Source: Allodiplogaster sudhausi
Lineage: Eukaryota > Nematoda > Chromadorea > Rhabditida > Diplogasteridae
DNA length: 64,000 nt
Direction: 5' to 3'
Assembly (NCBI GenBank): GCA_945643635.1
Contig: CALZFC010000298.1
Coordinates: forward strand, 1 to 64,000
Part shown: positions 1 through 60,284 of the stretch, in pieces
How the letters are laid out: every line of letters begins with the position of its first letter
How positions within the stretch are numbered: the stretch's first letter is position 1
Program-made: the position numbers and the translations under genes
Notes under the pieces: model-generated
Told to the model about the DNA's origin: nothing
The model's input: the letters and a program-made list of their open reading frames with translations, nothing else
The model's database searches: none

Positions 1-23
1 GCTGCCGATTGCGCCACAAGAGC
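1..23 (-). tRNA. tRNA-Asn(GTT) copy 1, cut by window start
   Basis: Only the first 23 nt of the gene (acceptor 5' strand and D arm) lie inside the window. Confidence 0.85.
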
Positions 24-232
24 ACGTAATGTGTTATCTACAGCTATGTCAAAATATACTATTTCTGTAGATATGAAAATAAACTTGATCCTTGACTAGA
101 CATGGCCAAAACGTCTTCGCTCCTACCGCCACAATGCTCGACATCGGTTTTTGCTGATATGTCAAGAATATATTATTTCGGCAGATTTGAAAATAAAACT
201 TGTTCCATGACTCTACATGGACAATAAAGTTT

Positions 233-304
233 CGCTCCTGGTGGGTTCGAACCACCGACCTTTCGGTTAACAGCCGAACGCGCTGCCGATTGCGCCACAA
301 GAGC
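233..304 (-). tRNA. tRNA-Asn(GTT) copy 2
   Basis: 72 nt: one C missing at the T stem/acceptor junction; distal stop. Possibly a sequencing error. Confidence 0.65.
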
Positions 305-511
305 ACGTAATGTGTTATCTACAGCTGTGTCAAAATATACTATTTCTGTAGATATGAAAATAAAACTTGATCCTTGGCTAGACATGGCCAAAACGTCTTC
401 GCTCCTACCGCCACAAATGCTCGACATCGGTTTTGCTGATATGTCAAGAATATATTATTTCGGCAGATTTGAAAATAAAACTTGTTCCTGACTCGACTAT
501 ATAAAAGTTTT

Positions 512-583
512 CGCTCCTGGGTGGGTTCGAACCACCGACCTTTCGGTAACAGCCGAACGCGCTGCCGATTGCGCCACAAGAGC
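512..583 (-). tRNA. tRNA-Asn(GTT) copy 3
   Basis: 72 nt: one A missing 3' of the anticodon (loop would be 6 nt); T4. Possibly a sequencing error. Confidence 0.6.
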
Positions 584-790
584 ACGTAATGTGTTATCTA
601 CAGCTATGTCAAAAATATACTATTTCTGTAGATATGAAATAAACTTGATCCTTGGCTAGACATGGCCAAAACGTCTTCCCTCCTACCGCCACAATGCTCG
701 ACATCGGTTTTTGCTGATATGTCAAGAATATATTATTTCGGCAGATTTGAAAACAAACTTGTTCCTTGACTCTACATATATAAAATTTTA

Positions 791-863
791 CGCTCCTGGG
801 TGGGTTCGAACCACCGACCTTTCGGTTAACAGCCGAACGCGCTGCCGATTGCGCCACAAGCAG
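791..863 (-). tRNA. tRNA-Asn(GTT) copy 4, altered 5' acceptor
   Basis: The 5' end is rearranged (CAGTAC replaces AGC on the plus strand), so the first acceptor pairs fail; T4. Likely non-functional or misread. Confidence 0.5.
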
Positions 864-1075
864 TACACGTAATGTTTATCTACAGCTATGTCAAAATATA
901 CTATTTCTGTAGATATGAAAATAAACTTGATCCTTGGCTAGACATGGCCAAAACGTCTTCGCTCCTACCGCCACAAATGCTCGACATCGGTTTTTGCTGA
1001 TATGTCAAGAATATATTATTTCGGCAGATTTGAAAATAAAACTTGTTCCATGACTCTACATGGACAAAAAGTTTT

Positions 1076-1148
1076 CGCTCCTGGGTGGGTTCGAACCACC
1101 GACCTTTCGGTTAACAGCCGAACGCGCTGCCGATTGCGCCACAAGAGC
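1076..1148 (-). tRNA. tRNA-Asn(GTT) copy 5
   Basis: Consensus; T5. Confidence 0.95.
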
Positions 1149-1359
1149 ACGTAATGTGTTATCTACAGCTGTGTCAAAAATATACTATTTCTGTAGATAT
1201 GAAAATAAAACTTGATCCTTGGCTAGACATGGCCAAAACGTCTTCGCTCCTACCGCCACAAATGCTCGACATCGGTTTTTGCTGATATGTCAAGAATATA
1301 TTATTTCGGCAGATTTGAAAATAAAACTTGTTCCATGACTCGACATATATAAAAGTTTT

Positions 1360-1432
1360 CGCTCCTGGGTGGGTTCGAACCACCGACCTTTCGGTTAACA
1401 GCCGAACGCGCTGCCGATTGCGCCACAAGAGC
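1360..1432 (-). tRNA. tRNA-Asn(GTT) copy 6
   Basis: Consensus; T4. Confidence 0.95.
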
Positions 1433-1643
1433 ACGTAATGTGTTATCTACAGCTATGTCAAAAATATACTATTTCTGTAGATATGAAAATAAAACTGGAT
1501 CCTTGACTAGACATGGCCAAAACGTCTTCGCTCCTACCGCCACAATGCTCGACATCGGTTTTTGCTGCAATGTCAAAAATATATTATTTCGGCAGATTTG
1601 AAAACAAAACTTGATCCTTGACTCGACATATATAAAATGAATA

Positions 1644-1716
1644 CGCTCCTGGGTGGGTTCGAACCACCGACCTTTCGGTTAACAGCCGAACGCGCTGCCG
1701 ATTGCGCCACAAGAGC
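1644..1716 (-). tRNA. tRNA-Asn(GTT) copy 7
   Basis: Consensus; T4 in the TATTCATTTTA trailer type. Confidence 0.95.
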
Positions 1717-1926
1717 ACGTAATGTGTTATCTACAGCTATGTCAAAATATACTATTTCTGTAGATATGAAAATAAAACTTGATCCTTGACTAGACATGGC
1801 CAAAACGTCTTCGCTCCTACCGCCACAAATGCTCGACATCGTTTTTTTGCTGATATGTCAAGAATATATTATTTCGGCAGATTTGAAAATAAAACTTGTT
1901 CCATGACTCTACATGGACAAAATTTT

Positions 1927-1999
1927 CGCTCCTGGGTGGGTTCGAACCACCGACCTTTCGGTTAACAGCCGAACGCGCTGCCGATTGCGCCACAAGAGC
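1927..1999 (-). tRNA. tRNA-Asn(GTT) copy 8
   Basis: Consensus; T4. Confidence 0.95.
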
Positions 2000-2213
2000 A
2001 CGTAATGTGTTATCTACAGCTGTGTCAAAAATATACTATTTCTGTAGATATGAAAATAAAACTTGATCCTTGGCTAGACATGGCCAAAACGTCTTCGCTC
2101 CTACCTACCGCCACAAATGCTCGACATCGGTTTTTGCTGATATGTCAAGAATATATTATTTCGGCAGATTTGAAAATAAAACTTGTTCCTGACTCGACAT
2201 ATATAAAAGTTTT

Positions 2214-2286
2214 CGCTCCTGGGTGGGTTCGAACCACCGACCTTTCGGTTAACAGCCGAACGCGCTGCCGATTGCGCCACAAGAGC
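2214..2286 (-). tRNA. tRNA-Asn(GTT) copy 9
   Basis: Consensus; T4. The remnant in the unit to its left has an extra CTAC (near 2100). Confidence 0.95.
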
Positions 2287-2495
2287 ACGTAATGTGTTAT
2301 CTACAGCTATGTCAAAAATATACTATTTCTGTAGATATGAAAATAAACTTGATCCTTGGCTAGACATGGCCAAAACGTCTTCCCTCCTACCGCCACAAAT
2401 GCTCGACATCGGTTTTTGCTGATATGTCAAGAATATATTATTTCGGCAGATTTGAAAACAAAACTTGATCCTTGACTCGACATATATAATGAATT

Positions 2496-2568
2496 CGCTC
2501 CTGGGTGGGTTCGAACCACCGACCTTTCGGTTAACAGCCGAACGCGCTGCCGATTGCGCCACAAGAGC
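2496..2568 (-). tRNA. tRNA-Asn(GTT) copy 10
   Basis: Consensus body; the trailer lacks a close T4 (distal stop) through loss of A residues on the plus strand. Confidence 0.93.
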
Positions 2569-2778
2569 ACGTAATGTGTTATCTACAGCTATGTCAAAAA
2601 TATACTATTTCTGTAGATATGAAAATAAAACTTGATCCTTGGCTAGACATGGCCAAAACGTCTTCGCTCCTACCGCCACAAATGCTCGACATCGGTTTTG
2701 CTGATATGTCAAGAATATATTATTTCGGCAGATTTGAAAACAAAACTTGTTCCATGACTCTACATGGACAAAAAGTTT

Positions 2779-2850
2779 CGCTCCTGGTGGGTTCGAACCA
2801 CCGACCTTTCGGTTAACAGCCGAACGCGCTGCCGATTGCGCCACAAGAGC
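2779..2850 (-). tRNA. tRNA-Asn(GTT) copy 11
   Basis: 72 nt: one C missing at the T stem/acceptor junction; T5. Confidence 0.65.
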
Positions 2851-3059
2851 ACGTAATGTGTTATCTACAGCTATGTCAAAATATACTATTTCTGTAGATA
2901 TGAAAATAAAACTTGATCCTTGACTAGACATGGCCAAAACGTCTTCGCTCCTACCGCCACAAATGCTCGACATCGGTTTTTGCTGATATGTCAAGAATAT
3001 ATTATTTCGGCAGATTTGAAACAAACTTGTCCTTGACTCGACATGGACAAAAAATTTTT

Positions 3060-3132
3060 CGCTCCTGGGTGGGTTCGAACCACCGACCTTTCGGTTAACA
3101 GCCGAACGCGCTGCCGATTGCGCCACAAGAGC
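3060..3132 (-). tRNA. tRNA-Asn(GTT) copy 12
   Basis: Consensus; T6. Confidence 0.95.
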
Positions 3133-3341
3133 ACGTAATGTGTTATCTACAGCTATGTCAAAAATATACTATTTCTGTAGATATGAAAATAAAACTTGAT
3201 CCTTGGCTAGACATGGCCAAAACGTCTTCGCTCCTACCGCCACAAATGCTCGACATCGGTTTTTGCTGATATGTCAAGAATATATTATTTCGGCAGATTT
3301 GAAATAAAACTTGTTCCATGACTCGACATATATAAAGTTTT

Positions 3342-12508: not shown

Positions 12509-12640
12509 ACGTAATGTGTTATCTACAGCTGTGTCAAAAATATACTATTTCTGTAGATATGAAAATAAGACATGATCCTTGACTAGAAATGGCCAAAACG
12601 TCTTCGCTCCTGCCGCCACAAGTGCTCGACATCGGTTTTT

Positions 12641-12687
12641 CTGCTAAAAATGATAAAGATGTTGGTACCTATTTGATAAAAAAAACT
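12641..12687. repeat. 47-bp extra segment, copy a
   Basis: Lies between CATCGGTTTTT and GCTCATATG in the spacer between the remnant and tRNA copy 46. Starts CTGCTAAAAATGATAAAGAT and contains GGTACC. Absent from ordinary units. Confidence 0.8.
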
Positions 12688-12767
12688 GCTCATATGTCAA
12701 GAATATATTATTTCGGCAGATTTGAAAATAAAACTTGTTCCATGACTCTACATGGACAAAAAGTTTT

Positions 12768-12840
12768 CGCTCCTGGGTGGGTTCGAACCACCGACCTTTC
12801 GGTTAACAGCCGAACGCGCTGCCGATTGCGCCACAAGAGC
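12768..12840 (-). tRNA. tRNA-Asn(GTT) copy 46
   Basis: Consensus; T5. Downstream spacer carries the extra segment; first gene of the 15-unit block, pairs with copy 61. Confidence 0.95.
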
Positions 12841-13052
12841 ACGTAATGTGTTATCTACAGCTGTGTCAAAAATATACTATTTCTGTAGATATGAAAATAA
12901 AACTGGATCCTTGACTAGACATGGCCAAAACGTCTTCGCTCCTACCGCCACAAGTGCTCGACATCGGTTTTTGCTCATATGTCAAGAATATATTATTTCG
13001 GCAGATTTGAAAATAAAACTTGTTCCATGACTCTACATGGACAATAAGTTTC

Positions 13053-13125
13053 CGCTCCTGGGTGGGTTCGAACCACCGACCTTTCGGTTAACAGCCGAAC
13101 GCGCTGCCGATTGCGCCACAAGAGC
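13053..13125 (-). tRNA. tRNA-Asn(GTT) copy 47
   Basis: Consensus body; distal stop. Pairs with copy 62. Confidence 0.94.
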
Positions 13126-13255
13126 ACGTAATGTGTTATCTACAGCTGTGTCAAAAATATACTATTTCTGTAGATATGAAAATAAGACATGATCCTTGAC
13201 TAGAAATGGCCAAAACGTCTTCGCTCCTGCCGCCACAAGTGCTCGACATCGGTTT

Positions 13256-13307
13256 AACAATTCTGCTAAAATGATAAAGATGGAGGTACCTATTTGATAA
13301 AAAAACT
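13256..13307. repeat. 52-bp extra segment, copy b
   Basis: Same family, beginning AACAATTCTGC; has GGAGGTACC where copy a has GTTGGTACC. Confidence 0.8.
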
Positions 13308-13387
13308 GCTCATATGTCAAGAATATATTATTTCGGCAGATTTGAAAATAAAACTTGTTCCATGACTCTTCATGGACAATAAGTTTC

Positions 13388-13460
13388 CGCTCCTGGGTGG
13401 GTTCGAACCACCGACCTTTCGGTTAACAGCCGAACGCGCTGCCGATTGCGCCACAAGAGC
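13388..13460 (-). tRNA. tRNA-Asn(GTT) copy 48
   Basis: Consensus body; distal stop; downstream extra segment. Pairs with copy 63. Confidence 0.94.
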
Positions 13461-13671
13461 ACGTAATGTGTTATCTACAGGTATGTCAAAAATATACTAT
13501 TTCTGTAGATATGAAAATCAAACTTGATCCTTGGCTAGACATGGCCAAAACGTCTTCGCTCCTACCGCCACAAATGCTCGACATCGGGTTTTGCTGATAT
13601 GTCAAGAATATATTATTTCGGCAGATTTGAAAATAAAACTTGTTCCATGACTCGACATATATAAAAATTTT

Positions 13672-13744
13672 CGCTCCTGGGTGGGTTCGAACCACCGACC
13701 TTTCGGTTAACAGCCGAACGCGCTGCCGATTGCGCCACAAGAGC
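13672..13744 (-). tRNA. tRNA-Asn(GTT) copy 49
   Basis: Consensus; T5 (AAAATTTTTAT trailer). Pairs with copy 64. Confidence 0.95.
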
Positions 13745-13956
13745 ACGTAATGTGTTATCTACAGGTATGTCAAAAATATACTATTTCTGTAGATATGAAA
13801 ATAAAACTTGATCCTTGGCTAGACATGGCCAAAACGTCTTCGCTCCTACCGCCACAAATGCTCGACATCGGTTTTTGCTGATATGTCAAGAATATATTAT
13901 TTCGGCAGATTTGAAAATAAAACTTGTTCCATGACTCGACATATATAAAAAGTTTT

Positions 13957-14029
13957 CGCTCCTGGGTGGGTTCGAACCACCGACCTTTCGGTTAACAGCC
14001 GAACGCGCTGCCGATTGCGCCACAAGAGC
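13957..14029 (-). tRNA. tRNA-Asn(GTT) copy 50
   Basis: Consensus; T5. Pairs with copy 65. Confidence 0.95.
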
Positions 14030-14158
14030 ACGTAATGTGTTATCTACAGCTATGTCAAAAATATACTATTTCTGTAGATATGAAAATAAACATGATCCTT
14101 GACTAGAAATGGCCAAAACGTCTTCGCTCCTGCCGCCACAAGTGCTCGACATCGGTTT

Positions 14159-14204
14159 AACAAATTCTGCTAAAAATGATAAAGATGTTGGTACTATTTG
14201 ATAT
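14159..14204. repeat. 46-bp extra segment, copy c
   Basis: Same family, beginning AACAAATTCTGC; shortened at its right end (no poly-A ACT). Confidence 0.8.
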
Positions 14205-14284
14205 GCTCATATGTCAAGAATATATTATTTCGGCAGATTTGAAAATAAAACTTGTTCCATGACTCTACATGGACAAAAAGTTTT

Positions 14285-14357
14285 CGCTCCTGGGTGGGTT
14301 CGAACCACCGACCTTTCGGTTAACAGCCGAACGCGCTGCCGATTGCGCCACAAGAGC
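14285..14357 (-). tRNA. tRNA-Asn(GTT) copy 51
   Basis: Consensus; T5; downstream extra segment. Pairs with copy 66. Confidence 0.95.
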
Positions 14358-14569
14358 ACGTAATCTGTTATCTACAGCCATGTCAAAAATATACTATTTC
14401 TGTAGATATGAAAATAAAACTTGATCCTTGGCTAGACATGGCCAAAACGTCTTCCCTCCTACCGCCACAAATGCTCGACATCGGTTTTTGCTGATATGTC
14501 AAGAATATATTATTTCGGCAGATTTGAAAATAAAACTTGTTCCATGACTCGACATATATAAAAAGTTTT

Positions 14570-14642
14570 CGCTCCTGGGTGGGTTCGAACCACCGACCTT
14601 TCGGTTAACAGCCGAACGCGCTGCCGATTGCGCCACAAGAGC
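14570..14642 (-). tRNA. tRNA-Asn(GTT) copy 52
   Basis: Consensus; T5. Pairs with copy 67. Confidence 0.95.
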
Positions 14643-14853
14643 ACGTAATGTGTTATCTACAGCTGTGTCAAAAATATACTATTTCTGTAGATATGAAAAT
14701 AAAACTGGATCCTTGACTAGACATGGCCAAAACGTCTTCGCTCCTACCGCCACAAATGCTCGACATCGGTTTTTGCTGCAATGTCAAAATATATTATTTC
14801 GGCAGATTTGAAAACAAAACTTGATCCTTGACTCGACATATATAAAATGAATA

Positions 14854-14926
14854 CGCTCCTGGGTGGGTTCGAACCACCGACCTTTCGGTTAACAGCCGAA
14901 CGCGCTGCCGATTGCGCCACAAGAGC
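14854..14926 (-). tRNA. tRNA-Asn(GTT) copy 53
   Basis: Consensus; T4. Pairs with copy 68. Confidence 0.95.
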
Positions 14927-15138
14927 ACGTAATGTGTTATCTACAGCTATGTCAAAAATATACTATTTCTGTAGATATGAAAATAAAACTTGATCCTTGG
15001 CTAGACATGGCCAAAACGTCTTCGCTCCTACCGCCACAAATGCTCGACATCGGTTTTTGCTGATATGTCAAGAATATATTATTTCGGCAGATTTGAAAAT
15101 AAAACTTGTTCCATGACTCTACATGGACAATAAGTTTC

Positions 15139-15211
15139 CGCTCCTGGGTGGGTTCGAACCACCGACCTTTCGGTTAACAGCCGAACGCGCTGCCGATTGC
15201 GCCACAAGAGC
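15139..15211 (-). tRNA. tRNA-Asn(GTT) copy 54
   Basis: Consensus body; distal stop. Pairs with copy 69. Confidence 0.94.
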
Positions 15212-15421
15212 ACGTAATGTGTTATCTACAGGTATGTCAAAAATATACTATTTCTGTAGATATGAAAATAAAACTTGATCCTTGGCTAGACATGGCCAAA
15301 ACGTCTTCGCTCCTACCGCCACAAATGCTCGACATCGGTTTTGCTGATATGTCAAGAATATATTATTTCGGCAGATTTGAAAATAAAACTTGTTCCATGA
15401 CTCGACATATATAAAAATTTT

Positions 15422-15494
15422 CGCTCCTGGGTGGGTTCGAACCACCGACCTTTCGGTTAACAGCCGAACGCGCTGCCGATTGCGCCACAAGAGC
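15422..15494 (-). tRNA. tRNA-Asn(GTT) copy 55
   Basis: Consensus; T5. Pairs with copy 70. Confidence 0.95.
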
Positions 15495-15706
15495 ACGTAA
15501 TGTGTTATCTACAGGTATGTCAAAAATATACTATTTCTGTAGATATGAAAATAAAACTTGATCCTTGGCTAGACATGGCCAAAACGTCTTCGCTCCTACC
15601 GCCACAAATGCTCGACATCGGTTTTTGCTGATATGTCAAGAATATATTATTTCGGCAGATTTGAAAATAAAACTTGTTCCATGACTCGACATATATAAAA
15701 AGTTTT

Positions 15707-15779
15707 CGCTCCTGGGTGGGTTCGAACCACCGACCTTTCGGTTAACAGCCGAACGCGCTGCCGATTGCGCCACAAGAGC
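15707..15779 (-). tRNA. tRNA-Asn(GTT) copy 56
   Basis: Consensus; T5. Pairs with copy 71. Confidence 0.95.
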
Positions 15780-15991
15780 ACGTAATGTGTTATCTACAGC
15801 TATGTCAAAAATATACTATTTCTGTAGATATGAAAATAAAACTTGATCCTTGGCTAGACATGGCCAAAACGTCTTCCCTCCTACCGCCACAAATGCTCGA
15901 CATCGGTTTTTGCTGATATGTCAAGAATATATTATTTCGGCAGATTTGAAAACAAAACTTGATCCTTGACTCGACATATATAAAATGAATA

Positions 15992-16064
15992 CGCTCCTGG
16001 GTGGGTTCGAACCACCGACCTTTCGGTTAACAGCCGAACGCGCTGCCGATTGCGCCACAAGAGC
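15992..16064 (-). tRNA. tRNA-Asn(GTT) copy 57
   Basis: Consensus; T4. Pairs with copy 72. Confidence 0.95.
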
Positions 16065-16276
16065 ACGTAACGTGTTATCTACAGCTATGTCAAAAATATA
16101 CTATTTCTGTAGATATGAAAATAAAACTTGATCCTTGGCTAGACATGGCCAAAACGTCTTCCCTCCTACCGCCACAAATGCTCGACATCGGTTTTTCCTG
16201 ATATGTCAAGAATATATTATTTCGGCAGATTTGAAAATAAAACTTGTTCCATGACTCGACATATATAAAAAGTTTT

Positions 16277-16349
16277 CGCTCCTGGGTGGGTTCGAACCAC
16301 CGACCTTTCGGTTAACAGCCGAACGCGCTGCCGATTGCGCCACAAGAGC
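16277..16349 (-). tRNA. tRNA-Asn(GTT) copy 58
   Basis: Consensus; T5. Pairs with copy 73. Confidence 0.95.
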
Positions 16350-16560
16350 ACGTAATGTGTTATCTACAGCTATGTCAAAAATATACTATTTCTGTAGATA
16401 TGAAAATAAAACTTGATCCTTGGCTAGACATGGCCAAAACGTCTTCGCTCCTACCGCCACAAATGCTCGACATCGGTTTTTGCTGATATGTCAAGAATAT
16501 ATTATTTCGGCAGATTTGAAAATAAAACTTGTTCCATGACTCGACATATATAAAAATTTT

Positions 16561-16633
16561 CGCTCCTGGGTGGGTTCGAACCACCGACCTTTCGGTTAAC
16601 AGCCGAACGCGCTGCCGATTGCGCCACAAGAGC
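16561..16633 (-). tRNA. tRNA-Asn(GTT) copy 59
   Basis: Consensus; T5. Confidence 0.95.
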
Positions 16634-16845
16634 ACGTAATGTGTTATCTACAGCTATGTCAAAAATATACTATTTCTGTAGATATGAAAATAAAACTTGA
16701 TCCTTGGCTAGACATGGCCAAAACGTCTTCGCTCCTACCGCCACAAATGCTCGACATCGGTTTTTGCTGATATGTCAAGAATATATTATTTCGGCAGATT
16801 TGAAAATAAAACTTGTTCCATGACTCGACATATATAAAAAGTTTT

Positions 16846-16918
16846 CGCTCCTGGGTGGGTTCGAACCACCGACCTTTCGGTTAACAGCCGAACGCGCTGC
16901 CGATTGCGCCACAAGAGC
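16846..16918 (-). tRNA. tRNA-Asn(GTT) copy 60
   Basis: Consensus; T5. Confidence 0.95.
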
Positions 16919-17048
16919 ACGTAATGTGTTATCTACAGCTATGTCAAAAATATACTATTTCTGTAGATATGAAAATAAGACATGATCCTTGACTAGAAAT
17001 GGCCAAAACGTCTTCGCTCCTGCCGCCACAAGTGCTCGACATCGGTTT

Positions 17049-17098
17049 AACAAATTCTGCTAAAAATGATAAAGATGTTGGTTATTTGATAAAAAACT
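17049..17098. repeat. 50-bp extra segment, copy d
   Basis: Counterpart of copy a, 15 units later; GGTACC reduced to GGTTA. Confidence 0.8.
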
Positions 17099-17178
17099 GC
17101 TCATATGTCAAGAATATATTATTTCGGCAGATTTGAAAATAAAACTTGTTCCATGACTCTACATGGACAAAAAGTTTT

Positions 17179-17251
17179 CGCTCCTGGGTGGGTTCGAACC
17201 ACCGACCTTTCGGTTAACAGCCGAACGCGCTGCCGATTGCGCCACAAGAGC
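17179..17251 (-). tRNA. tRNA-Asn(GTT) copy 61
   Basis: Consensus; T5; downstream extra segment; starts the second 15-unit block. Confidence 0.95.
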
Positions 17252-17462
17252 ACGTAATGTGTTATCTACAGCTGTGTCAAAAATATACTATTTCTGTAGA
17301 TATGAAAATAAAACTGATCCTTGACTAGACATGGCCAAAACGTCTTCGCTCCTACCGCCACAAGTGCTCGACATCGGTTTTTGCTCATATGTCAAGAATA
17401 TATTATTTCGGCAGATTTGAAAATAAAACTTGTTCCATGACTCTACATGGACAATAAGTTTC

Positions 17463-17535
17463 CGCTCCTGGGTGGGTTCGAACCACCGACCTTTCGGTTA
17501 ACAGCCGCACGCGCTGCCGATTGCGCCACAAGAGC
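17463..17535 (-). tRNA. tRNA-Asn(GTT) copy 62
   Basis: T28 to G, which makes a G-A mismatch in the anticodon stem; distal stop. Copy 47 lacks this change. Confidence 0.85.
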
Positions 17536-17664
17536 ACGTAATGTGTTATCTACAGCTGTGTCAAAAATATACTATTTCTGTAGATATGAAAATAAACATG
17601 ATCCTTGACTAGAAATGGCCAAAACGTCTTCGCTCCTGCCGCCACAAGTGCTCGACATCGGTTT

Positions 17665-17712
17665 ACAAATTCTGCTAAAATGATAAAGATGGAGGTTATT
17701 TGATAAAAAACT
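17665..17712. repeat. 48-bp extra segment, copy e
   Basis: Counterpart of copy b; shares its GGAGG variant. Confidence 0.8.
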
Positions 17713-17792
17713 GCTCATATGTCAAGAATATATTATTTCGGCAGATTTGAAAATAAAACTTGTTCCATGACTCTTCATGGACAATAAGTTTC

Positions 17793-17865
17793 CGCTCCTG
17801 GGTGGGTTCGAACCACCGACCTTTCGGTTAACAGCCGAACGCGCTGCCGATTGCGCCACAAGAGC
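17793..17865 (-). tRNA. tRNA-Asn(GTT) copy 63
   Basis: Consensus body; distal stop; downstream extra segment. Confidence 0.94.
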
Positions 17866-18076
17866 ACGTAATGTGTTATCTACAGGTATGTCAAAAATAT
17901 ACTATTTCTGTAGATATGAAAATAAAACTTGATCCTTGGCTAGACATGGCCAAAACGTCTTCGCTCCTACCGCCACAAATGCTCGACATCGGGTTTTGCT
18001 GATATGTCAAGAATATATTATTTCGGCAGATTTGAAAATAAAACTTGTTCCATGACTCGACATATATAAAAATTTT

Positions 18077-18149
18077 CGCTCCTGGGTGGGTTCGAACCAC
18101 CGACCTTTCGGTTAACAGCCGAACGCGCTGCCGATTGCGCCACAAGAGC
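18077..18149 (-). tRNA. tRNA-Asn(GTT) copy 64
   Basis: Consensus; T5. Confidence 0.95.
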
Positions 18150-18361
18150 ACGTAATGTGTTATCTACAGGTATGTCAAAAATATACTATTTCTGTAGATA
18201 TGAAAATAAAACTTGATCCTTGGCTAGACATGGCCAAAACGTCTTCGCTCCTACCGCCACAAATGCTCGACATCGGGTTTTGCTGATATGTCAAGAATAT
18301 ATTATTTCGGCAGATTTGAAAATAAAACTTGTTCCATGACTCGACATATATAAAAAGTTTT

Positions 18362-18434
18362 CGCTCCTGGGTGGGTTCGAACCACCGACCTTTCGGTTAA
18401 CAGCCGAACGCGCTGCCGATTGCGCCACAAGAGC
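18362..18434 (-). tRNA. tRNA-Asn(GTT) copy 65
   Basis: Consensus; T5. Confidence 0.95.
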
Positions 18435-18564
18435 ACGTAATGTGTTATCTACAGGTATGTCAAAAATATACTATTTCTGTAGATATGAAAATAAGACATG
18501 ATCCTTGACTAGAAATGGCCAAAACGTCTTCGCTCCTGCCGCCACAAGTGCTCGACATCGGTTT

Positions 18565-18616
18565 ACAAATTCTGCTAAAATGATAAAGATGTTGGTACTA
18601 TTTGATAAAAAAAACT
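18565..18616. repeat. 52-bp extra segment, copy f
   Basis: Counterpart of copy c; keeps the poly-A ACT right end. Confidence 0.8.
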
Positions 18617-18695
18617 GCTCATATGTCAAGAATATATTATTTCGGCAGATTTGAAAATAAAACTTGTTCCATGACTCTACATGGACAAAAGTTTT

Positions 18696-18768
18696 CGCTC
18701 CTGGGTGGGTTCGAACCACCGACCTTTCGGTTAACAGCCGAACGCGCTGCCGATTGCGCCACAAGAGC
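18696..18768 (-). tRNA. tRNA-Asn(GTT) copy 66
   Basis: Consensus; T4 (copy 51 has T5); downstream extra segment. Confidence 0.95.
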
Positions 18769-18979
18769 ACGTAATCTGTTATCTACAGCCATGTCAAAAA
18801 TATACTATTTCTGTAGATATGAAAATAAAACTTGATCCTTGGCTAGACATGGCCAAAACGTCTTCCCTCCTACCGCCACAAATGCTCGACATCGGTTTTT
18901 CTGATATGTCAAGAATATATTATTTCGGCAGATTTGAAAATAAAACTTGTTCCATGACTCGACATATATAAAAAGTTTT

Positions 18980-19052
18980 CGCTCCTGGGTGGGTTCGAAC
19001 CACCGACCTTTCGGTTAACAGCCGAACGCGCTGCCGATTGCGCCACAAGAGC
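18980..19052 (-). tRNA. tRNA-Asn(GTT) copy 67
   Basis: Consensus; T5. Confidence 0.95.
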
Positions 19053-19264
19053 ACGTAATGTGTTATCTACAGCTGTGTCAAAAATATACTATTTCTGTAG
19101 ATATGAAAATAAAACTGGATCCTTGACTAGACATGGCCAAAACGTCTTCGCTCCTACCGCCACAAATGCTCAACATCGGTTTTTGCTGCAATGTCAAAAA
19201 TATATTATTTCGGCAGATTTGAAAACAAAACTTGATCCTTGACTCGACATATATAAAATGAATA

Positions 19265-19337
19265 CGCTCCTGGGTGGGTTCGAACCACCGACCTTTCGGT
19301 TAACAGCCGAACGCGCTGCCGATTGCGCCACAAGAGC
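19265..19337 (-). tRNA. tRNA-Asn(GTT) copy 68
   Basis: Consensus; T4. Confidence 0.95.
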
Positions 19338-19549
19338 ACGTAATGTGTTATCTACAGCTATGTCAAAAATATACTATTTCTGTAGATATGAAAATAAAAC
19401 TTGATCCTTGGCTAGACATGGCCAAAACGTCTTCGCTCCTACCGCCACAAATGCTCGACATCGGTTTTTGCTGATATGTCAAGAATATATTATTTCGGCA
19501 GATTTGAAAATAAAACTTGTTCCATGACTCTACATGGACAATAAGTTTC

Positions 19550-19622
19550 CGCTCCTGGGTGGGTTCGAACCACCGACCTTTCGGTTAACAGCCGAACGCG
19601 CTGCCGATTGCGCCACAAGAGC
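19550..19622 (-). tRNA. tRNA-Asn(GTT) copy 69
   Basis: Consensus body; distal stop. Confidence 0.94.
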
Positions 19623-19833
19623 ACGTAATGTGTTATCTACAGGTATGTCAAAAATATACTATTTCTGTAGATATGAAAATAAAACTTGATCCTTGGCTAG
19701 ACATGGCCAAAACGTCTTCGCTCCTACCGCCACAAATGCTCGACATCGGGTTTTGCTGATATGTCAAGAATATATTATTTCGGCAGATTTGAAAATAAAA
19801 CTTGTTCCATGACTCGACATATATAAAAATTTT

Positions 19834-19906
19834 CGCTCCTGGGTGGGTTCGAACCACCGACCTTTCGGTTAACAGCCGAACGCGCTGCCGATTGCGCCAC
19901 AAGAGC
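19834..19906 (-). tRNA. tRNA-Asn(GTT) copy 70
   Basis: Consensus; T5. Confidence 0.95.
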
Positions 19907-20118
19907 ACGTAATGTGTTATCTACAGGTATGTCAAAAATATACTATTTCTGTAGATATGAAAATAAAACTTGATCCTTGGCTAGACATGGCCAAAACGTC
20001 TTCGCTCCTACCGCCACAAATGCTCGACATCGGTTTTTGCTGATATGTCAAGAATATATTATTTCGGCAGATTTGAAAATAAAACTTGTTCCATGACTCG
20101 ACATATATAAAAAGTTTT

Positions 20119-20191
20119 CGCTCCTGGGTGGGTTCGAACCACCGACCTTTCGGTTAACAGCCGAACGCGCTGCCGATTGCGCCACAAGAGC
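20119..20191 (-). tRNA. tRNA-Asn(GTT) copy 71
   Basis: Consensus; T5. Confidence 0.95.
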
Positions 20192-20403
20192 ACGTAATGT
20201 GTTATCTACAGCTATGTCAAAAATATACTATTTCTGTAGATATGAAAATAAAACTTGATCCTTGGCTAGACATGGCCAAAACGTCTTCCCTCCTACCGCC
20301 ACAAATGCTCGACATCGGTTTTTGCTGATATGTCAAGAATATATTATTTCGGCAGATTTGAAAACAAAACTTGATCCTTGACTCGACATATATAAAATGA
20401 ATA

Positions 20404-20476
20404 CGCTCCTGGGTGGGTTCGAACCACCGACCTTTCGGTTAACAGCCGAACGCGCTGCCGATTGCGCCACAAGAGC
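20404..20476 (-). tRNA. tRNA-Asn(GTT) copy 72
   Basis: Consensus; T4. Confidence 0.95.
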
Positions 20477-28852: not shown

Positions 28853-28935
28853 GACATCGGTTTTTGCTGATATGTCAAGAATATATTATTTCGGCAGATT
28901 TGAAAATAAAACTTGTTCCATGACTCGACATATAT

Positions 28936-31296: not shown

Positions 31297-31508
31297 ACGT
31301 AATGTGTTATCTACAGCTATGTCAAAAATATACTATTTCTGTAGATATGAAAATAAAACTTGATCCTTGGCTAGACATGGCCAAAACGTCTTCGCTCCTA
31401 CCGCCACAAATGCTCGACATCGGTTTTTGCTGATATGTCAAGAATATATTATTTCGGCAGATTTGAAAATAAAACTTGTTCCATGACTCTACATGGACAA
31501 AAAGTTTT

Positions 31509-31581
31509 CGCTCCTGGGTGGGTTCGAACCACCGACCTTTCGGTTAACAGCCGAACGCGCTGCCGATTGCGCCACAAGAGC
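31509..31581 (-). tRNA. tRNA-Asn(GTT) copy 111
   Basis: Consensus; T5. Confidence 0.95.
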
Positions 31582-54368: not shown

Positions 54369-54579
54369 ACGTAATGTGTTATCTACAGCTATGTCAAAAA
54401 TATACTATTTCTGTAGATATGAAAATAAAACTTGATCCTTGGCTAGACATGGCCAAAACGTCTTCGCTCCTACCGCCACAAATGCTCGACATCGGTTTTT
54501 GCTGATATGTCAAGAATATATTATTTGGCAGATTTGAAAATAAAACTTGTTCCATGACTCTACATGGACAAAAAGTTTT

Positions 54580-54652
54580 CGCTCCTGGGTGGATTCGAAC
54601 CACCGACCTTTCGGTTAACAGCCGAACGCGCTGCCGATTGCGCCACAAGAGC
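54580..54652 (-). tRNA. tRNA-Asn(GTT) copy 192
   Basis: C60 to T in the T loop (B box GGTTCGAATCC); T5. Pairs with copy 199. Confidence 0.94.
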
Positions 54653-54864
54653 ACGTAATGTGTTATCTACAGCTGTGTCAAAAATATACTATTTCTGTAG
54701 ATATGAAAATAAGACATGATCCTTGACTAGATATGGCCAAAACGTCTTCGCTCCTGCCGCCACAAGTGCTCGACATCGGTTTTTGCTCATATGTCAAGAA
54801 TATATTATTTTGGCAGATTTGAAAATAAAACTTGTTCCATGACTCTACATGGACAATAAGTTTT

Positions 54865-54937
54865 CGCTCCTGGGTGGGTTCGAACCACCGACCTTTCGGT
54901 TAACAGCCGAACGCGCTGCCGATTGCGCCACAAGAGC
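54865..54937 (-). tRNA. tRNA-Asn(GTT) copy 193
   Basis: Consensus body; distal stop. Pairs with copy 200. Confidence 0.94.
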
Positions 54938-55149
54938 AGGGAATCTGTTATCTGCAGCCATGTCAAAAATATACTATTTCTGTAGATATGAAAATAAAAC
55001 TGGATCCTTGACTAGACATGGCCAAAACGTCTTCGCTCCTACCGCCACAAATGCTCAACATCGGTTTTTGCTGCAATGTCAAAAATATATTATTTCGGCA
55101 GATTTGAAAACAAAACTTGATCCATGACTCTACATGGACAATAAGTTTT

Positions 55150-55222
55150 CGCTCCTGGGTGGGTTCGAACCACCGACCTTTCTGTTAACAGCCGAACGCG
55201 CTGCCGATTGCGCCACAAGAGC
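55150..55222 (-). tRNA. tRNA-Asn(GTT) copy 194
   Basis: C40 to A gives an A-G mismatch in the anticodon stem; distal stop. Pairs with copy 201. Confidence 0.85.
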
Positions 55223-55435
55223 AGGGAATCTGTTATCTGCAGCCATGTCAAAAATATACTATTTCTGTAGATATGAAAATAAAACTGGATCCTTGACTAG
55301 ACATGGCCAAAACGTCTTCGCTCCTACCGCCACAAATGCTCAACATCGGTTTTTTGCTGCAATGTCAAAAATATATTATTTCGGCAGATTTGAAAACAAA
55401 ACTTGATCCTTGACTCGACATGGACAAAAAGTTTT

Positions 55436-55508
55436 CGCTCCTGGGTGGGTTCGAACCACCGACCTTTCGGTTAACAGCCGAACGCGCTGCCGATTGCGCC
55501 ACAAGAGC
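55436..55508 (-). tRNA. tRNA-Asn(GTT) copy 195
   Basis: Consensus; T5. Pairs with copy 202. Confidence 0.95.
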
Positions 55509-55719
55509 ACGTAACGTGTTATCTACAACTATGTCAAAAATATACTATTTCTGTAGATATGAAAATAAAACTTGATCCTTGGCTAGACATGGCCAAAACG
55601 TCTTCGCTCCTACCGCCACAAATGCTCGACATCGGTTTTTGCTGATATGTCAAGAATATATTATTTCGGCAGATTTGAAAATAAAATTTGTTCCATGACT
55701 CTACATGGAAAAAAGTTTT

Positions 55720-55794
55720 CGCTCCTGGGCGGGTTCGAACCACCGACCTTTCGGTTAATAGCCGAATGCGCTGCCGAGAGAGCGCCACAAGAGC
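55720..55794 (-). pseudogene. tRNA-Asn-like copy 196 with anticodon ATT
   Basis: 75 nt. The anticodon loop is CTATTAA, so the anticodon is ATT instead of GTT. The D loop is 10 nt (TCTCTCGGCA) and loses A14 and the A-box match. There is also a G26 to A change and an A63 to G change (T-G pair). T6 stop. It may be a decaying copy, or a rare A34 (inosine) variant if transcribed. Its twin is copy 203. Confidence 0.6.
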
Positions 55795-56006
55795 ACGTAA
55801 TGTGTTATCTACAGCTGTGTCAAAAATATACTATTTCTGTAGATATGAAAATAAGACATGATCCTTGACTAGAAATGGTGAAAACGTCTTCGCTCCTGCC
55901 GCCACAAGTGCTCGACATCGGTTTTTGCTCTTATGTCAAGAATATATTATTTCGGCAGATTTGAAAATAAAACTTGTTCCGTGACTCTACATGAACAATA
56001 AGTTTT

Positions 56007-56079
56007 CGCTCCTGGGTGGGTTCGAACCACCGACCTTTCGGTTAACAGCCGAACGCGCTGCCGATTGCGCCACAAGAGC
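56007..56079 (-). tRNA. tRNA-Asn(GTT) copy 197
   Basis: Consensus body; distal stop. Pairs with copy 204. Confidence 0.94.
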
Positions 56080-56363: not shown

Positions 56364-56575
56364 ACGTAATGTGTTATCTACAGCTATGTCAAAAATATAC
56401 CATTTCTGTAGATATGAAAATAAAACTTGATCCTTGGCTAGACATGGCCAAAACGTCTTCGCTACAACCGCCACAAATGCTCGACATCGGTTTTTGCTGA
56501 TATGTCAAGAATATATTATTTGGGCAGATTTGAAAATAAAACTTGTTCCATGACTCTACATGGACAAAAAGTTTT

Positions 56576-56648
56576 CGCTCCTGGGTGGATTCGAACCACC
56601 GACCTTTCGGTTAACAGCCGAACGCGCTGCCGATTGCGCCACAAGAGC
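56576..56648 (-). tRNA. tRNA-Asn(GTT) copy 199
   Basis: C60 to T as in copy 192; T5. Confidence 0.94.
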
Positions 56649-56860
56649 ACGTAATGTGTTATCTACAGCTGTGTCAAAAATATACTATTTCTGTAGATAT
56701 GAAAATAAGACATGATCCTTGACTAGATATGGCCAAAACGTCTTCGCTCCTGCCGCCACAAGTGCTCGACATCGGTTTTTGCTCATATGTCAAGAATATA
56801 TTATTTTGGCAGATTTGAAAATAAAAGTTGTTCCATGACTCTACATGGACAATAAGTTTT

Positions 56861-56933
56861 CGCTCCTGGGTGGGTTAGAACCACCGACCTTTCGGTTAAC
56901 AGCCGAACGCGCTGCCGATTGCGCCACAAGAGC
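56861..56933 (-). tRNA. tRNA-Asn(GTT) copy 200
   Basis: G57 to T in the T loop, which breaks the B box core (GGTTCTAACCC); distal stop. Copy 193 lacks the change. Confidence 0.8.
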
Positions 56934-57146
56934 AGGGAATCTGTTATCTGCAGCCATGTCAAAAATATACTATTTCTGTAGATATGAAAATAAAACTGGA
57001 TCCTTGACTAGACATGGCCAAAACGTCTTCGCTCCTACCGCCACAAATGCTCAACATCGGTTTTTTGCTGCAATGTCAAAAATATATTATTTCGGCAGAT
57101 TTGAAAACAAAACTTGATCCATGACTCTACATGGACAATAAGTTTT

Positions 57147-57219
57147 CGCTCCTGGGTGGGTTCGAACCACCGACCTTTCTGTTAACAGCCGAACGCGCTG
57201 CCGATTGCGCCACAAGAGC
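57147..57219 (-). tRNA. tRNA-Asn(GTT) copy 201
   Basis: C40 to A as in copy 194; distal stop. Confidence 0.85.
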
Positions 57220-57432
57220 AGGGAATCTGTTATCTGCAGCCATGTCAAAAATATACTATTTCTGTAGATATGAAAATAAAACTGGATCCTTGACTAGACA
57301 TGGCCAAAACGTCTTCGCTCCTACCGCCACAAATGCTCAACATCGGTTTTTTGCTGCAATGTCAAAAATATATTATTTCGGCAGATTTGAAAACAAAACT
57401 TGATCCTTGACTCGACATGGACAAAAAGTTTT

Positions 57433-57505
57433 CGCTCCTGGGTGGGTTCGAACCACCGACCTTTCGGTTAACAGCCGAACGCGCTGCCGATTGCGCCACA
57501 AGAGC
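57433..57505 (-). tRNA. tRNA-Asn(GTT) copy 202
   Basis: Consensus; T5. Confidence 0.95.
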
Positions 57506-57716
57506 ACGTAACGTGTTATCTACAACTATGTCAAAAATATACTATTTCTGTAGATATGAAAATAAAACTTGATCCTTGGCTAGACATGGCCAAAACGTCT
57601 TCGCTCCTACCGCCACAAATGCTCGACATCGGTTTTTGCTGATATGTCAAGAATATATTATTTCGGCAGATTTGAAAATAAAATTTGTTCCATGACTCTA
57701 CATGGAAAAAAGTTTT

Positions 57717-57791
57717 CGCTCCTGAGCGGGTTCGAACCACCGACCTTTCGGTTAATAGCCGAATGCGCTGCCGAGAGAGCGCCACAAGAGC
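57717..57791 (-). pseudogene. tRNA-Asn-like copy 203 with anticodon ATT
   Basis: Twin of copy 196 with the same ATT anticodon and 10-nt D loop, plus one further change near the T stem/acceptor junction; T6 stop. Confidence 0.6.
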
Positions 57792-58003
57792 ACGTAATGT
57801 GTTATCTACAGCTGTGTCAAAAATATACTATTTCTGTAGATATGAAAATAAGACATGATCCTTGACTAGAAATGGTGAAAACGTCTTCGCTCCTGCCGCC
57901 ACAAGTGCTCGACATCGGTTTTTGCTCTTATGTCAAGAATATATTATTTCGGCAGATTTGAAAATAAAACTTGTTCCGTGACTCTACATGAACAATAAGT
58001 TTT

Positions 58004-58075
58004 CGCTCCTAGGTGGGTTCGAACCACCGACCTTTCGGTTAACAGCGAACGCGCTGCCGATTGCGCCACAAGAGC
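58004..58075 (-). pseudogene. Damaged tRNA-Asn(GTT) copy 204
   Basis: 72 nt: one G is missing from the 5' strand of the anticodon stem, and position 66 is T; distal stop. Twin copy 197 is intact. Confidence 0.6.
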
Positions 58076-58288
58076 AGGGAATCTGTTATCTGCAGCCATG
58101 TCAAGAATATACTATTTCTGTAGATATGAAAATAAAACTGGATCCTTGACTAGACATGGCCAAAACGTCTTCGCTCCTACCGCCACAAATGCTCAACATC
58201 GGCTTTTTGCTGTAATGTCAAAAATATATTATTTCGGCAGATTTGAAAACAAAACTTGATCCTTGACTCGACATATATAAAATGAATA

Positions 58289-58361
58289 CGCTCCTGGGTG
58301 GGTTCGAACCACCGACCTTTCGGTTAACAGCCGAACGCGCTGCCGATTGCGCCACAAGAGC
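58289..58361 (-). tRNA. tRNA-Asn(GTT) copy 205
   Basis: Consensus; T4. Confidence 0.95.
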
Positions 58362-58573
58362 ACGTAATGTGTTATCTACAGCTATGTCAAAAATATACCA
58401 TTTCTGTAGATATGAAAATAAAACTTGATCCTTGGCTAGACATGGCCAAAACGTCTTCGCTCCTACCGCCACAAATGCTCGACATCGGTTTTTGCTGATA
58501 TGTCAAGAATATATTATTTCGCCAGATTTGAAAATAAAACTTGTTCCATGACTCTACATGTACAAAAAGTTTT

Positions 58574-58646
58574 CGCTCCTGGGTGGGTTCGAACCACCGA
58601 CCTTTCGGTTAACAGCCGAACGCGCTGCCGATTGCGCCACAAGAGC
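58574..58646 (-). tRNA. tRNA-Asn(GTT) copy 206
   Basis: Consensus body; T5; the 5' flank is shortened (GGAATCGATCTG type on the plus strand). Confidence 0.94.
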
Positions 58647-58855
58647 ACGGAATCGATCTGCAGCTACGTCAAAAATACACTATTTCTGTAGATATGAAAA
58701 TAAAACTTGATCCTTGGCTAGACATGGCCAAAACGTCTTCGCTTCTACCGCCACAAGGGCTCGACATCGGTTTTTGCTGATATGTCAAGAATATATTATT
58801 TCTGCAGATTTGAAAATAAAACTTGTTCCATGACTCTACATGTACAAAAAGTTTT

Positions 58856-58928
58856 CGCTCCTGGGTGGGTTCGAACCACCGACCTTTCGGTTAACAGCCG
58901 AACGCGCTGCCGATTGCGCCACAAGAGC
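58856..58928 (-). tRNA. tRNA-Asn(GTT) copy 207
   Basis: Consensus body; T5; same shortened 5' flank as copy 206. Confidence 0.94.
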
Positions 58929-59138
58929 ACGGAATCGATCTGCAGCTATGTCAAAAATATACCATTTCTGTAGATATGAAAATAAAACTTGATCCTTGGC
59001 TAGACATGGCCAAAACGTCTTCGCTCCTACCGCCACAAATGCTCAACATCGGTTTTTTGCTGCAATGTCAAAAATATATTATTTCGGCAGATTTGAAAAC
59101 AAAACTTGATCCTTGACTCGACATATATAAAATGAATA

Positions 59139-59211
59139 CGCTCCTGGGTGGGTTCGAACCACCGACCTTTCGGTTAACAGCCGAACGCGCTGCCGATTGC
59201 GCCACAAGAGC
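59139..59211 (-). tRNA. tRNA-Asn(GTT) copy 208
   Basis: Consensus; T4. Confidence 0.95.
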
Positions 59212-59423
59212 ACGTAATGTGTTATCTACAGCTATGTCAAAAATATACCATTTCTGTAGATATGAAAATAAAACTTGATCCTTGGCTAGACATGGCCAAA
59301 ACGTCTTCACTCCTACCGCCACAAATGCTCGACATCGGTTTTTGCTGATATGTCAAGAATATATTATTTCGGCAGATTTGAAAATAAAACTTGTTCCATG
59401 AGTCTACATGGACAATAAGTTTT

Positions 59424-59496
59424 CGCTCTTGGGTGGGTTCGAACCACCGACCTTTCGGTTAACAGCCGAACGCGCTGCCGATTGCGCCACAAGAGC
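59424..59496 (-). tRNA. tRNA-Asn(GTT) copy 209
   Basis: G68 to A turns the acceptor T-G pair into T-A, so the acceptor is fully Watson-Crick; distal stop. Confidence 0.93.
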
Positions 59497-59708
59497 AGGG
59501 AATCTGTTATCTGCAGCCATGTCAAAAATATACTATTTCTGTAGATATGAAAATAAAACTTGATCCTTGGCTAGACATGGCCAAAACGTCTTCGCTCCTA
59601 CCGCCACAAGGGCTCGACATCGGTTTTTGCTGCTCGGTCAAAAATATATTATTTCGGCAGATTTGAAAATAAAACTTGATCCTTGACTCGACATTTATAA
59701 AATAAATT

Positions 59709-59781
59709 CGCTCCTGGGTGGGTTCGAATCACCCACCTTTCGGTCAACAACCGAACGTGCTGCCCATTGCGCCACAAGAGC
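59709..59781 (-). pseudogene. Diverged tRNA-Asn(GTT) copy 210
   Basis: Anticodon GTT is kept, but there are at least six changes: a mismatch in the D stem (GCGC/GCAC), altered D and anticodon loops (TTGTTGA), a changed variable loop and an A53-C61 mismatch in the T stem. T4 stop. Confidence 0.65.
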
Positions 59782-59993
59782 AGGGAATCTGTTATCTACA
59801 GCTACGTCAAAAATATACCATTTCTGTAGATATGAAAATAAAACTTGATCCTTGGCTAGACATGGCCAAAACGTCTTCGCTCCTACCGCCACAAATGCTC
59901 GACATCGGATTTTGCTGATATGTCAAGAATATATTATTTCGGCAGATTTGAAAATAAAACTTGTTCCATGACTCCACATGGACAAAATGTTTT

Positions 59994-60066
59994 CGCTAGT
60001 GGGTGGGTTCGAACCACCGACCTTTCGGTTAACAGCCGAACGCGCTGCCGATTGCGCCACAAGAGC
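59994..60066 (-). pseudogene. tRNA-Asn(GTT) copy 211 with broken acceptor
   Basis: The 3' acceptor strand is CACTAGC instead of CAGGAGC, which breaks two central acceptor pairs. The rest matches consensus; T4 stop. It is the last full-length copy (the first in transcription order) at the array edge. Confidence 0.6.
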
Positions 60067-60274
60067 ACTGAATCGATCTGCAGCTACGTCAAAAATACAC
60101 TATTTCTGTAGATATGAAAATAAAACTTGATCCTTGACTCGACATGGCCAAAACGTCTTCGTTCCAACCGCCACAAATGCTCGACATCGGTTTTTGCTGA
60201 TATGTCAAAAATATATAATTTCGGCAGATTTGAAAATAAAACATGTTCCTTGACTCGGCATGGCCAAATGTATT

Positions 60275-60284
60275 CGCTGGGTGG
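60275..60284 (-). pseudogene. Truncated tRNA-Asn 3' end at the array boundary
   Basis: The last partial unit ends with CGCTGGGTGG on the plus strand, matching the 3' acceptor and T stem of the tRNA with CCT deleted. Beyond it the sequence no longer resembles the unit, so the array breaks inside a tRNA. Confidence 0.6.

Follow-up and report, generated by a model that had tools for sequence, protein, structure and literature searches.

A tRNA-Asn(GUU) satellite in the nematode Allodiplogaster sudhausi, probably a large surplus of transcription-competent gene copies

The first 60 kb of contig CALZFC010000298.1 in the genome assembly of Allodiplogaster sudhausi (GCA_945643635.1) form one tandem array of tRNA-Asn(GUU) genes. 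We analysed positions 1 to 64,000 of this contig, a stretch of 64,000 nt that we call the window (C292:1-64000 in the contig numbering used here; C292 measures 1,002,047 bp), and searched the assembly as a whole (351.8 Mb, 382 contigs). Taken together, the results make it probable that the array is a nematode tRNA satellite, whose copies are competent for transcription and constitute a large surplus, each member of which is dispensable on its own. The host is marked as a nematode by the spliced leader SL1, a hallmark of this phylum. Its 22-mer has 1,821 exact copies in the assembly (reversed control 0), which corrects the insect host presumed in a first-pass annotation of the window.

The history we propose would begin with a monomer of ~170 bp, made up of a tRNA-Asn(GUU) gene and a spacer of ~95 bp. 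This monomer would have duplicated, one tRNA of the duplicated pair would have lost its middle ~52 nt to yield a 285-bp dimer, and the dimer would have spread by repeated unequal exchange, of single units as well as longer blocks, over several contigs and hundreds of kilobases. Every intact copy would be a self-contained gene for RNA polymerase III (Pol III), and selection on single copies would be weak, leaving variants, including anticodon-shifted ones, able to amplify. At least seven dispersed genes, the weak selection on single copies and the amplified variants together suggest that what persists in the array is most likely a surplus, with most of its copies presumably superfluous or silent.

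Anatomy of the array and its unit

In the window, ARAGORN predicts 210 tRNA genes; they span 232-60067 and without exception lie on the minus strand. Their anticodon reads GTT in 206 copies and ATT in two, and is unreadable in a further two through 1-nt deletions. Tandem Repeats Finder (TRF) returns a lone array at 1-60261 with a period of 285 bp, 211.8 copies and 92% matches, and Rfam cmscan with the RF00005 model gives 111 matches in positions 1-32000 and 99 in 31900-64000, again 210. From these predictions and the sequence at the right end, the whole array is placed at 1-60284 (minus strand, ~211 units of ~285 bp). It is bounded on the right by a truncated tRNA 3' part (60275-60284, minus strand), after which non-array sequence follows, and on the left by a partial tRNA piece (1-23), where the edge of the array is the end of the contig. 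A satellite-like, single-strand array of one isoacceptor, with about 211 copies and an end at 60284, had been proposed in the first-pass annotation and agrees with these counts. The array had also been said to continue past the window start. It does run to base 1, but this is base 1 of C292 as well and nothing is seen beyond, so the sequence further out is missing from the assembly.

The gene copies are of high quality. All 210 reach the RF00005 gathering threshold of 29 bits; the lowest score is 47.6 bits and the consensus copy, exemplified by the intact 73-nt tRNA-Asn(GTT) at 31509-31581 (minus strand), scores 68.5 bits, so covariance scores, proposed earlier as a check, do not mark the copies as pseudogenes. 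The 73-nt consensus folds as a cloverleaf (-27.9 kcal/mol) and is matched exactly by 191 of the 210 copies. TTTT occurs within 25 nt downstream of 183/210 copies in the window, and downstream of 800/883 aligned units from C292, C190 and C171. The covariance score, the cloverleaf, the GTT anticodon and the nearby TTTT are those of a functional tRNA-Asn(GUU) gene. With a cloverleaf, an internal promoter sequence and usually a T-run in each copy, the array is predicted to be transcription-competent in vivo.

The 19 copies that depart from the consensus lie mostly at the ends, with 11 in the 20 right-edge units, 6 in the 15 left-end units and 2 between. Five of the six at the left, or contig, end carry one-base deletions. 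Units there have 2-3 deletions each, whereas units 10-139 have 0-0.4, and because deletions rise toward the contig end we read them as poor consensus sequence. ARAGORN and cmscan also report, at 55719-55795 (minus strand), a degenerate copy whose anticodon is ATT and whose D loop is altered; its duplicate lies at 57716-57792.

The high copy number of one tRNA could raise the suspicion of a tRNA-derived short interspersed nuclear element (SINE) or a pseudogene family mistaken for genes, as described for the 1,098 tRNA-Gln-TTG predictions of Schistosoma mansoni (PMC2770079; here and below, statements on published systems hold for the passages of the reports cited). Such a family is hardly credible here, given a head-to-tail arrangement on a single strand with a 285-bp period and a consensus of 68.5 bits. 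Moreover, only seven exact copies lie outside arrays in the contigs up to C171, and these have no flanks in common with the array.

The unit itself is a degenerate dimer, as segmentation and alignment of a representative 285-bp core unit reveal (31297-31581, minus strand). Counted from the tRNA 5' end, it comprises the tRNA (1-73), spacer A with a variable trailer that includes the T-run (74-165; 31417-31508), a 21-nt piece (166-186; 31396-31416) and spacer B, in which the 5' flank of the following tRNA lies (187-285; 31297-31395). The 21-nt piece joins 12 nt from the 5' end of a tRNA to 9 nt from its 3' end; in the long-unit form, 11/12 and 8/9 positions match the tRNA, which identifies the piece as a second tRNA with ~52 internal nt lost. 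Its motif occurs 205 times on the minus strand of the window and 0 times on the plus strand. The two spacers are homologous, with 67/82 positions identical over 82 nt; their local alignment score is 89, whereas 2,000 shuffles gave 31 at most. Spacer homology and tRNA remnant together point to an ancestral monomer of ~170 bp with one tRNA.

Of the 285-bp single-tRNA unit originally described, the period and the single intact tRNA stand; the unit is, however, a dimer with a tRNA remnant, and six units measure 328-335 bp, with ~48 bp extra in spacer A. These long units fall within 12509-18768 (minus strand; tRNA starts 12767, 13387, 14284, 17178, 17792 and 18695). On C171, twelve units reach 396-402 bp, and the single one read has two remnants, as would be expected if exchange took place between sub-repeats too. 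Spacings of ~401 and ~521 bp in an Asn array on C304, like the ~400-bp units of C171, fit extra remnant sub-units.

Growth of the array and its copies across the assembly

Divergence from the consensus declines inward from the right edge: it stands at 14.8, 13.9 and 9.8 substitutions per unit in the three outermost 10-unit bins and at 1.9-3.9 across units 60-139. Altogether, 129 of 209 unit sequences in the window are distinct. Block duplications are legible within the array: at a shift of 15 units, units 139-150 (16919-20476, minus strand) and 154-165 (12509-16064, minus strand) differ by 0-3 substitutions each, and at a shift of 7 units the same holds near the right edge for units 7-12 (56364-58075, minus strand) and 14-19 (54369-56079, minus strand). 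Neighbouring units differ more (2.99%) than units three apart (2.56%). A homogenised core, a diverged edge and block duplications characterise a satellite, and the homogenised centre, decaying edge and duplicated blocks are the signature of repeated multi-unit unequal exchange. The array is thus a very large example with a legible history, from the birth of the dimer and the decay of the tRNA in one half to the homogenised core, the decaying edge and the amplified variants.

Across the assembly, the exact tRNA-Asn 72-mer occurs 1,425 times (79 plus, 1,346 minus; reversed control 0). Array contigs account for 825 of these copies: 191 on C292, 153 on C190, 444 on C171 (40 plus, 404 minus) and 37 on C62. 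Among the matches listed, which follow contig order into C171, at least seven single exact copies lie outside arrays, on C1, C9, C17, C26, C33, C43 and C115. The remaining 593, all on the minus strand, lie on later contigs than C171, with C190 and C292 excepted, and some of them could be dispersed; every plus-strand copy has been placed. C171 (165 kb, 535 tRNAs) consists almost entirely of array; its minus-strand copies number 5 at 0.2-1.7 kb, 310 at 6-95 kb and 160 at 119-165 kb, and 60 plus-strand copies lie at 101-118 kb. C190 (51 kb) has 160 tRNAs and a 5.6-kb flank common to C171 at 96.9%. It may therefore be a haplotig of C171, in which case the haploid copy number would be below the summed count. 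The arrays of C62 and C292 lie near contig starts, and their orientations would fit one locus flanked by both contigs.

A second subfamily is recognised by a C304-type trailer. This trailer has 724 exact matches, all on the minus strand and spaced near 279, 401 and 521 bp; 100/100 of the matches listed lie in C304, from 135,843 on. A 601-bp sample from this contig is ~90% like the C292 consensus and contains one exact tRNA copy and one with the changes T5G and G34T. A larger sample of 1.9 kb (C304:163000-164900) has T5G in 6/6 tRNA copies and 0/6 exact ones, so that the C304-type copies are at least partly additional to the 1,425. T5G turns the U-G pair 5-68 of the acceptor stem into a G-G mismatch, and the amplification of this form leans toward the surplus reading. 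We considered whether the 593 unplaced exact copies are located in C304; the same sample does not support this.

Might the arrays have been inflated by mis-assembly? In C292, C171 and C190 they extend to a contig end, and in C62 they are close to one; the duplicated flank of C190 suggests haplotigs that may inflate the total, and the one-base deletions are concentrated where C292 begins. A looped assembly, on the other hand, would not invent distinct units in such number, an edge-to-core gradient and nested block duplications. No flank similarity was found between C292 and C171 or C190, and a second tRNA array, of Lys type, is embedded in C19, with millions of bases between it and the beginning of that contig. 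We therefore regard an assembly artefact as very improbable, if somewhat less so than a SINE or pseudogene family.

The seven dispersed tRNA-Asn genes are identical over the 72-mer and solitary within 672 bp each, none is flanked by sequence related to the array, and TTTT follows soon downstream in 7/7. The arrays hold the bulk of the exact tRNA-Asn copies; given at least seven dispersed genes, they are not the sole source. The flanks of the dispersed genes pair up (C1/C17 at 88%, C9/C26 at 92%, C33/C43 at 80%, with C115 unpaired), possibly through old segmental duplication. A TTAG D-loop form of tRNA-Asn gave 0 matches in the assembly at ≤1 mismatch. A spacer 45-mer gave 0 matches in viral contigs and the tRNA 73-mer 0 in GTDB genomes. 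Similarity to two array units was found in 34 phage records, the 20 listed matching at annotated tRNA genes, mostly tRNA-Asn, with 79-81%; the array flank had no matches among plasmids.

Selection on single copies and amplified variants

The array amounts to a natural experiment on selection acting on one gene copy among hundreds. For a comparison across contigs, 895 units were excised around the 905 tRNAs of C292, C190 and C171, and after twelve over-long units were dropped 883 were aligned. By copy count in the window, the tRNA has 31/15,252 positions substituted against 55/4,385 in the remnant (Fisher 1e-16). Such counts, with Fisher values down to 2e-33, had suggested strong purifying selection that keeps the tRNA perfect. 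This interpretation was rejected, because related copies are not independent and tests on distinct alleles downgraded it. Counting distinct alleles over 73 tRNA sites and 180 non-trailer spacer sites, we read the perfect core as mostly the product of recent homogenisation, since most of these tests are not significant, and we see weak purifying selection on the tRNA in older parts of the array. Variants present in ≥5% of the 883 units number 0/43 in the tRNA against 23/164 elsewhere (p=0.005), and variants that reach 10 copies 5/43 against 49/164 (p=0.018). Defective forms have been amplified as well, which speaks against selection on every copy: on C171, a six-change form is present in 10 copies and G50A in 12.

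Several points weigh against a dispensable surplus kept in place by satellite dynamics. The units are not all independent, as 159 of the 883 come from C190, which may repeat C171. No difference between tRNA and spacer was detected in the C292 core (0 against 7 distinct alleles, p=0.2), in C171 at 9-80 kb (2 against 8, p=0.73) and at 80-95 kb (13 against 28, p=0.71), in C190 (1 against 8, p=0.45) or in the whole window (23 against 67, p=0.47; p=0.016 for alleles in ≥2 units). Clear constraint appears only in C171 beyond 100 kb (13 against 77, p=0.00015). Finally, the sequence is compatible with use of the array as a gene set as well as with its silence.

Some variants affect the anticodon. The change G34T, which gives the lysine anticodon UUU in an Asn body, is found in at least 37 copies by exact 26-mer (9 on C62, 22 on C171, 4 on C190 and 2 on C304) and in none within the window. 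The 26 aligned copies have one common five-change trailer haplotype, which makes descent from one event the simplest explanation; C61T accompanies the change in 18/26, and TTTT is kept in 26/26. The G34T copy read on C304 has a different trailer together with T5G, so a second origin is possible there. In Drosophila, a GTT to TTT shift in a tRNA-Asn gene with no other change has been reported, and in mammalian systems the anticodon is described as the main determinant of Lys identity (Rogers and Griffiths-Jones 2014, PMC3923123). By analogy, the UUU-anticodon Asn-body tRNAs may be lysine-accepting. The change is the same in both cases; whereas the report on Drosophila describes a single shifted locus, at least 37 copies stand in a satellite here, and an anticodon shift is thus seen spreading by satellite dynamics.

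The main competitor of the surplus reading is a dosage array, whose copies would be expressed and maintained by selection to supply large amounts of Asn-tRNA, as a tissue or stage that makes Asn-rich secreted proteins might need. The 191 exact copies and the 183 with a T-run would suit such a role, as would the confinement of tRNA variants to less than 5% of the units and the constraint in the older part of C171. There is also a parallel in Arabidopsis, where a Ser-Tyr-Tyr cluster is silent in most tissues and active in root-tip cells (PMC12308677). We nevertheless consider selection for dosage unlikely. At least seven dispersed genes make the same tRNA; demand alone hardly explains a ratio of 825 to 7 between the placed exact copies in arrays and those dispersed; TTTT is missing within 25 nt in 27/210 window copies; and damaged and anticodon-shifted copies have been amplified. 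In favour of the surplus reading or against it, use of these genes is testable, because trailer variants tag the array copies in pre-tRNAs.

Relation to known tRNA arrays and neighbouring sequence

The overall architecture of the array is that of the VeCTRs described in the nematode Nippostrongylus brasiliensis, in which a tRNA-Trp unit of ~200 bp is present in close to 150 copies and a tRNA-Ser unit with an 80-bp spacer in 90, the spacers being species-specific (Eccles et al. 2018, PMC5765664). Both systems occur in nematodes, have one tRNA per short unit and form long arrays that break the assembly. Their existence contradicts the earlier statement that known tandem tRNA arrays use longer, multi-gene units. 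With a nematode host and one intact tRNA per short head-to-tail unit in hundreds of copies, the window array belongs to this known kind; it is larger, its unit is dimeric, and its family has amplified anticodon variants elsewhere. Whereas the reported VeCTRs are of Trp and Ser type (PMC5765664), the present family consists of tRNA-Asn in a 285-bp degenerate dimer with a remnant, and comprises 1,425 exact copies as well as anticodon-shifted ones. In the open-licence literature searched, the class of single-tRNA mega-arrays is reported in one other nematode only, and no report of a nematode tRNA-Asn array was found among the matches listed. The family calls for caution with nematode tRNA gene counts and with studies of tRNA-codon adaptation.

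Several tRNA arrays exist within this one animal genome. The assembly contains 1,061 anticodon arms of tRNA-Lys(TTT) type, 994 of them with the T arm in register. Of the 100 matches listed, 99 lie in C19 from 2,294,310 onward, roughly 135, 259 or 395 bp apart. Farther along, at C19:2,480,428-2,500,169, eight Rfam tRNA matches of 68.9 bits suggest that the Lys-type array runs on for some 200 kb, at least to 2,500,169. An RF00005 scan, which scored 63 of 47,110 loose candidates, yielded a further array on the minus strand of C21. It comprises at least 49 of the 62 matches listed, dense at 1,782,219-1,805,486 and in part extending to 1,889,203, with a spacing near 345 bp in part. This array differs from the exact Asn gene, as no place on C21 is among the exact 72-mer matches listed, and its isoacceptor may be of Lys type. 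A tRNA-Trp pattern gave 0 matches in the assembly, which carries no information on a Trp array.

When comparing these arrays with those of Entamoeba, high-copy tandem tRNA is common to both, and a single-tRNA unit (His GTG) exists there too. Nearly the whole tRNA gene set of E. histolytica stands in arrays; their units are of 25 types, hold up to five tRNAs and have spacers of short tandem repeats (PMC2652664). Here, at least seven dispersed exact Asn genes exist besides the arrays, and the Lys-type and C21 tRNAs are arrayed as well. The spacer short tandem repeats, a trait of all array units in E. histolytica and E. dispar only, have no counterpart in the window, where a TRF run with a minimum score of 50 detects no period other than that of 285 bp. 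A tRNA economy resembling that of Entamoeba is a tentative and rather doubtful extension of our reading. Asn, Lys(UUU)-type and C21 tRNAs would then be held in long arrays (Asn and Lys in hundreds to about a thousand copies) as stage-regulated reserves, which would also act as nurseries amplifying UUU-anticodon Asn-body tRNAs into new Lys decoders.

Plant clusters likewise combine tandem amplification with degenerate members and a dispersed set, on a smaller scale. Arabidopsis has 27 tRNA-Pro genes and 27 three-gene Ser-Tyr-Tyr units, and among 50 plants a cluster holds at most 26 identical tRNA genes, or up to 110 with divergence (PMC12308677, PMC12652284). The human repeat at 1q23.3 is a tandem tRNA-bearing repeat as well. 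On the human side, however, the unit is long and multi-gene (7.3 kb, five tRNA genes), varies in copy number between 9 and 43 units per allele, is GC-rich and binds CTCF (PMC4041453).

The human repeat has been proposed as a boundary (PMC4041453), and the array could in the same way be a structural element of the chromosome, its TFIIIC and Pol III sites serving as a chromatin boundary, a condensin or cohesin loading zone or a fork barrier. Roles as a chromatin barrier, a replication obstacle or a dosage source had been put forward as possibilities in the first-pass annotation. An intact tRNA gene, and hence internal promoter sequence, stands about every 285 bp over 60 kb on one strand, as a structural role might demand. 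A unit conserved for binding only could do without a complete cloverleaf and a perfect acceptor stem, however, and orientation is not kept throughout, as the inverted block of 60 plus-strand copies on C171 demonstrates. We consider a structural role improbable, well behind dosage.

In the sequence around the arrays, a few further features were noted. The end of C1 (10,148,768-10,204,176) carries tandem SL1 sequences, often ~460 bp apart and with strand reversals. On C292, open frames between ~60 and 104 kb are mostly of low complexity; one that resembled a K2P channel had no Pfam match. From 74,000 to 104,000, the same contig has low-complexity, CT-rich tandem repeats whose open frames are rich in Ser and Leu. 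Adjoining the array within the window lies an inverted repeat with arms of 1,215 nt (60845-62059 and 62113-63327) that are 97% identical and separated by a 53-nt loop. This near-perfect, fold-back-like element contains short open reading frames only.

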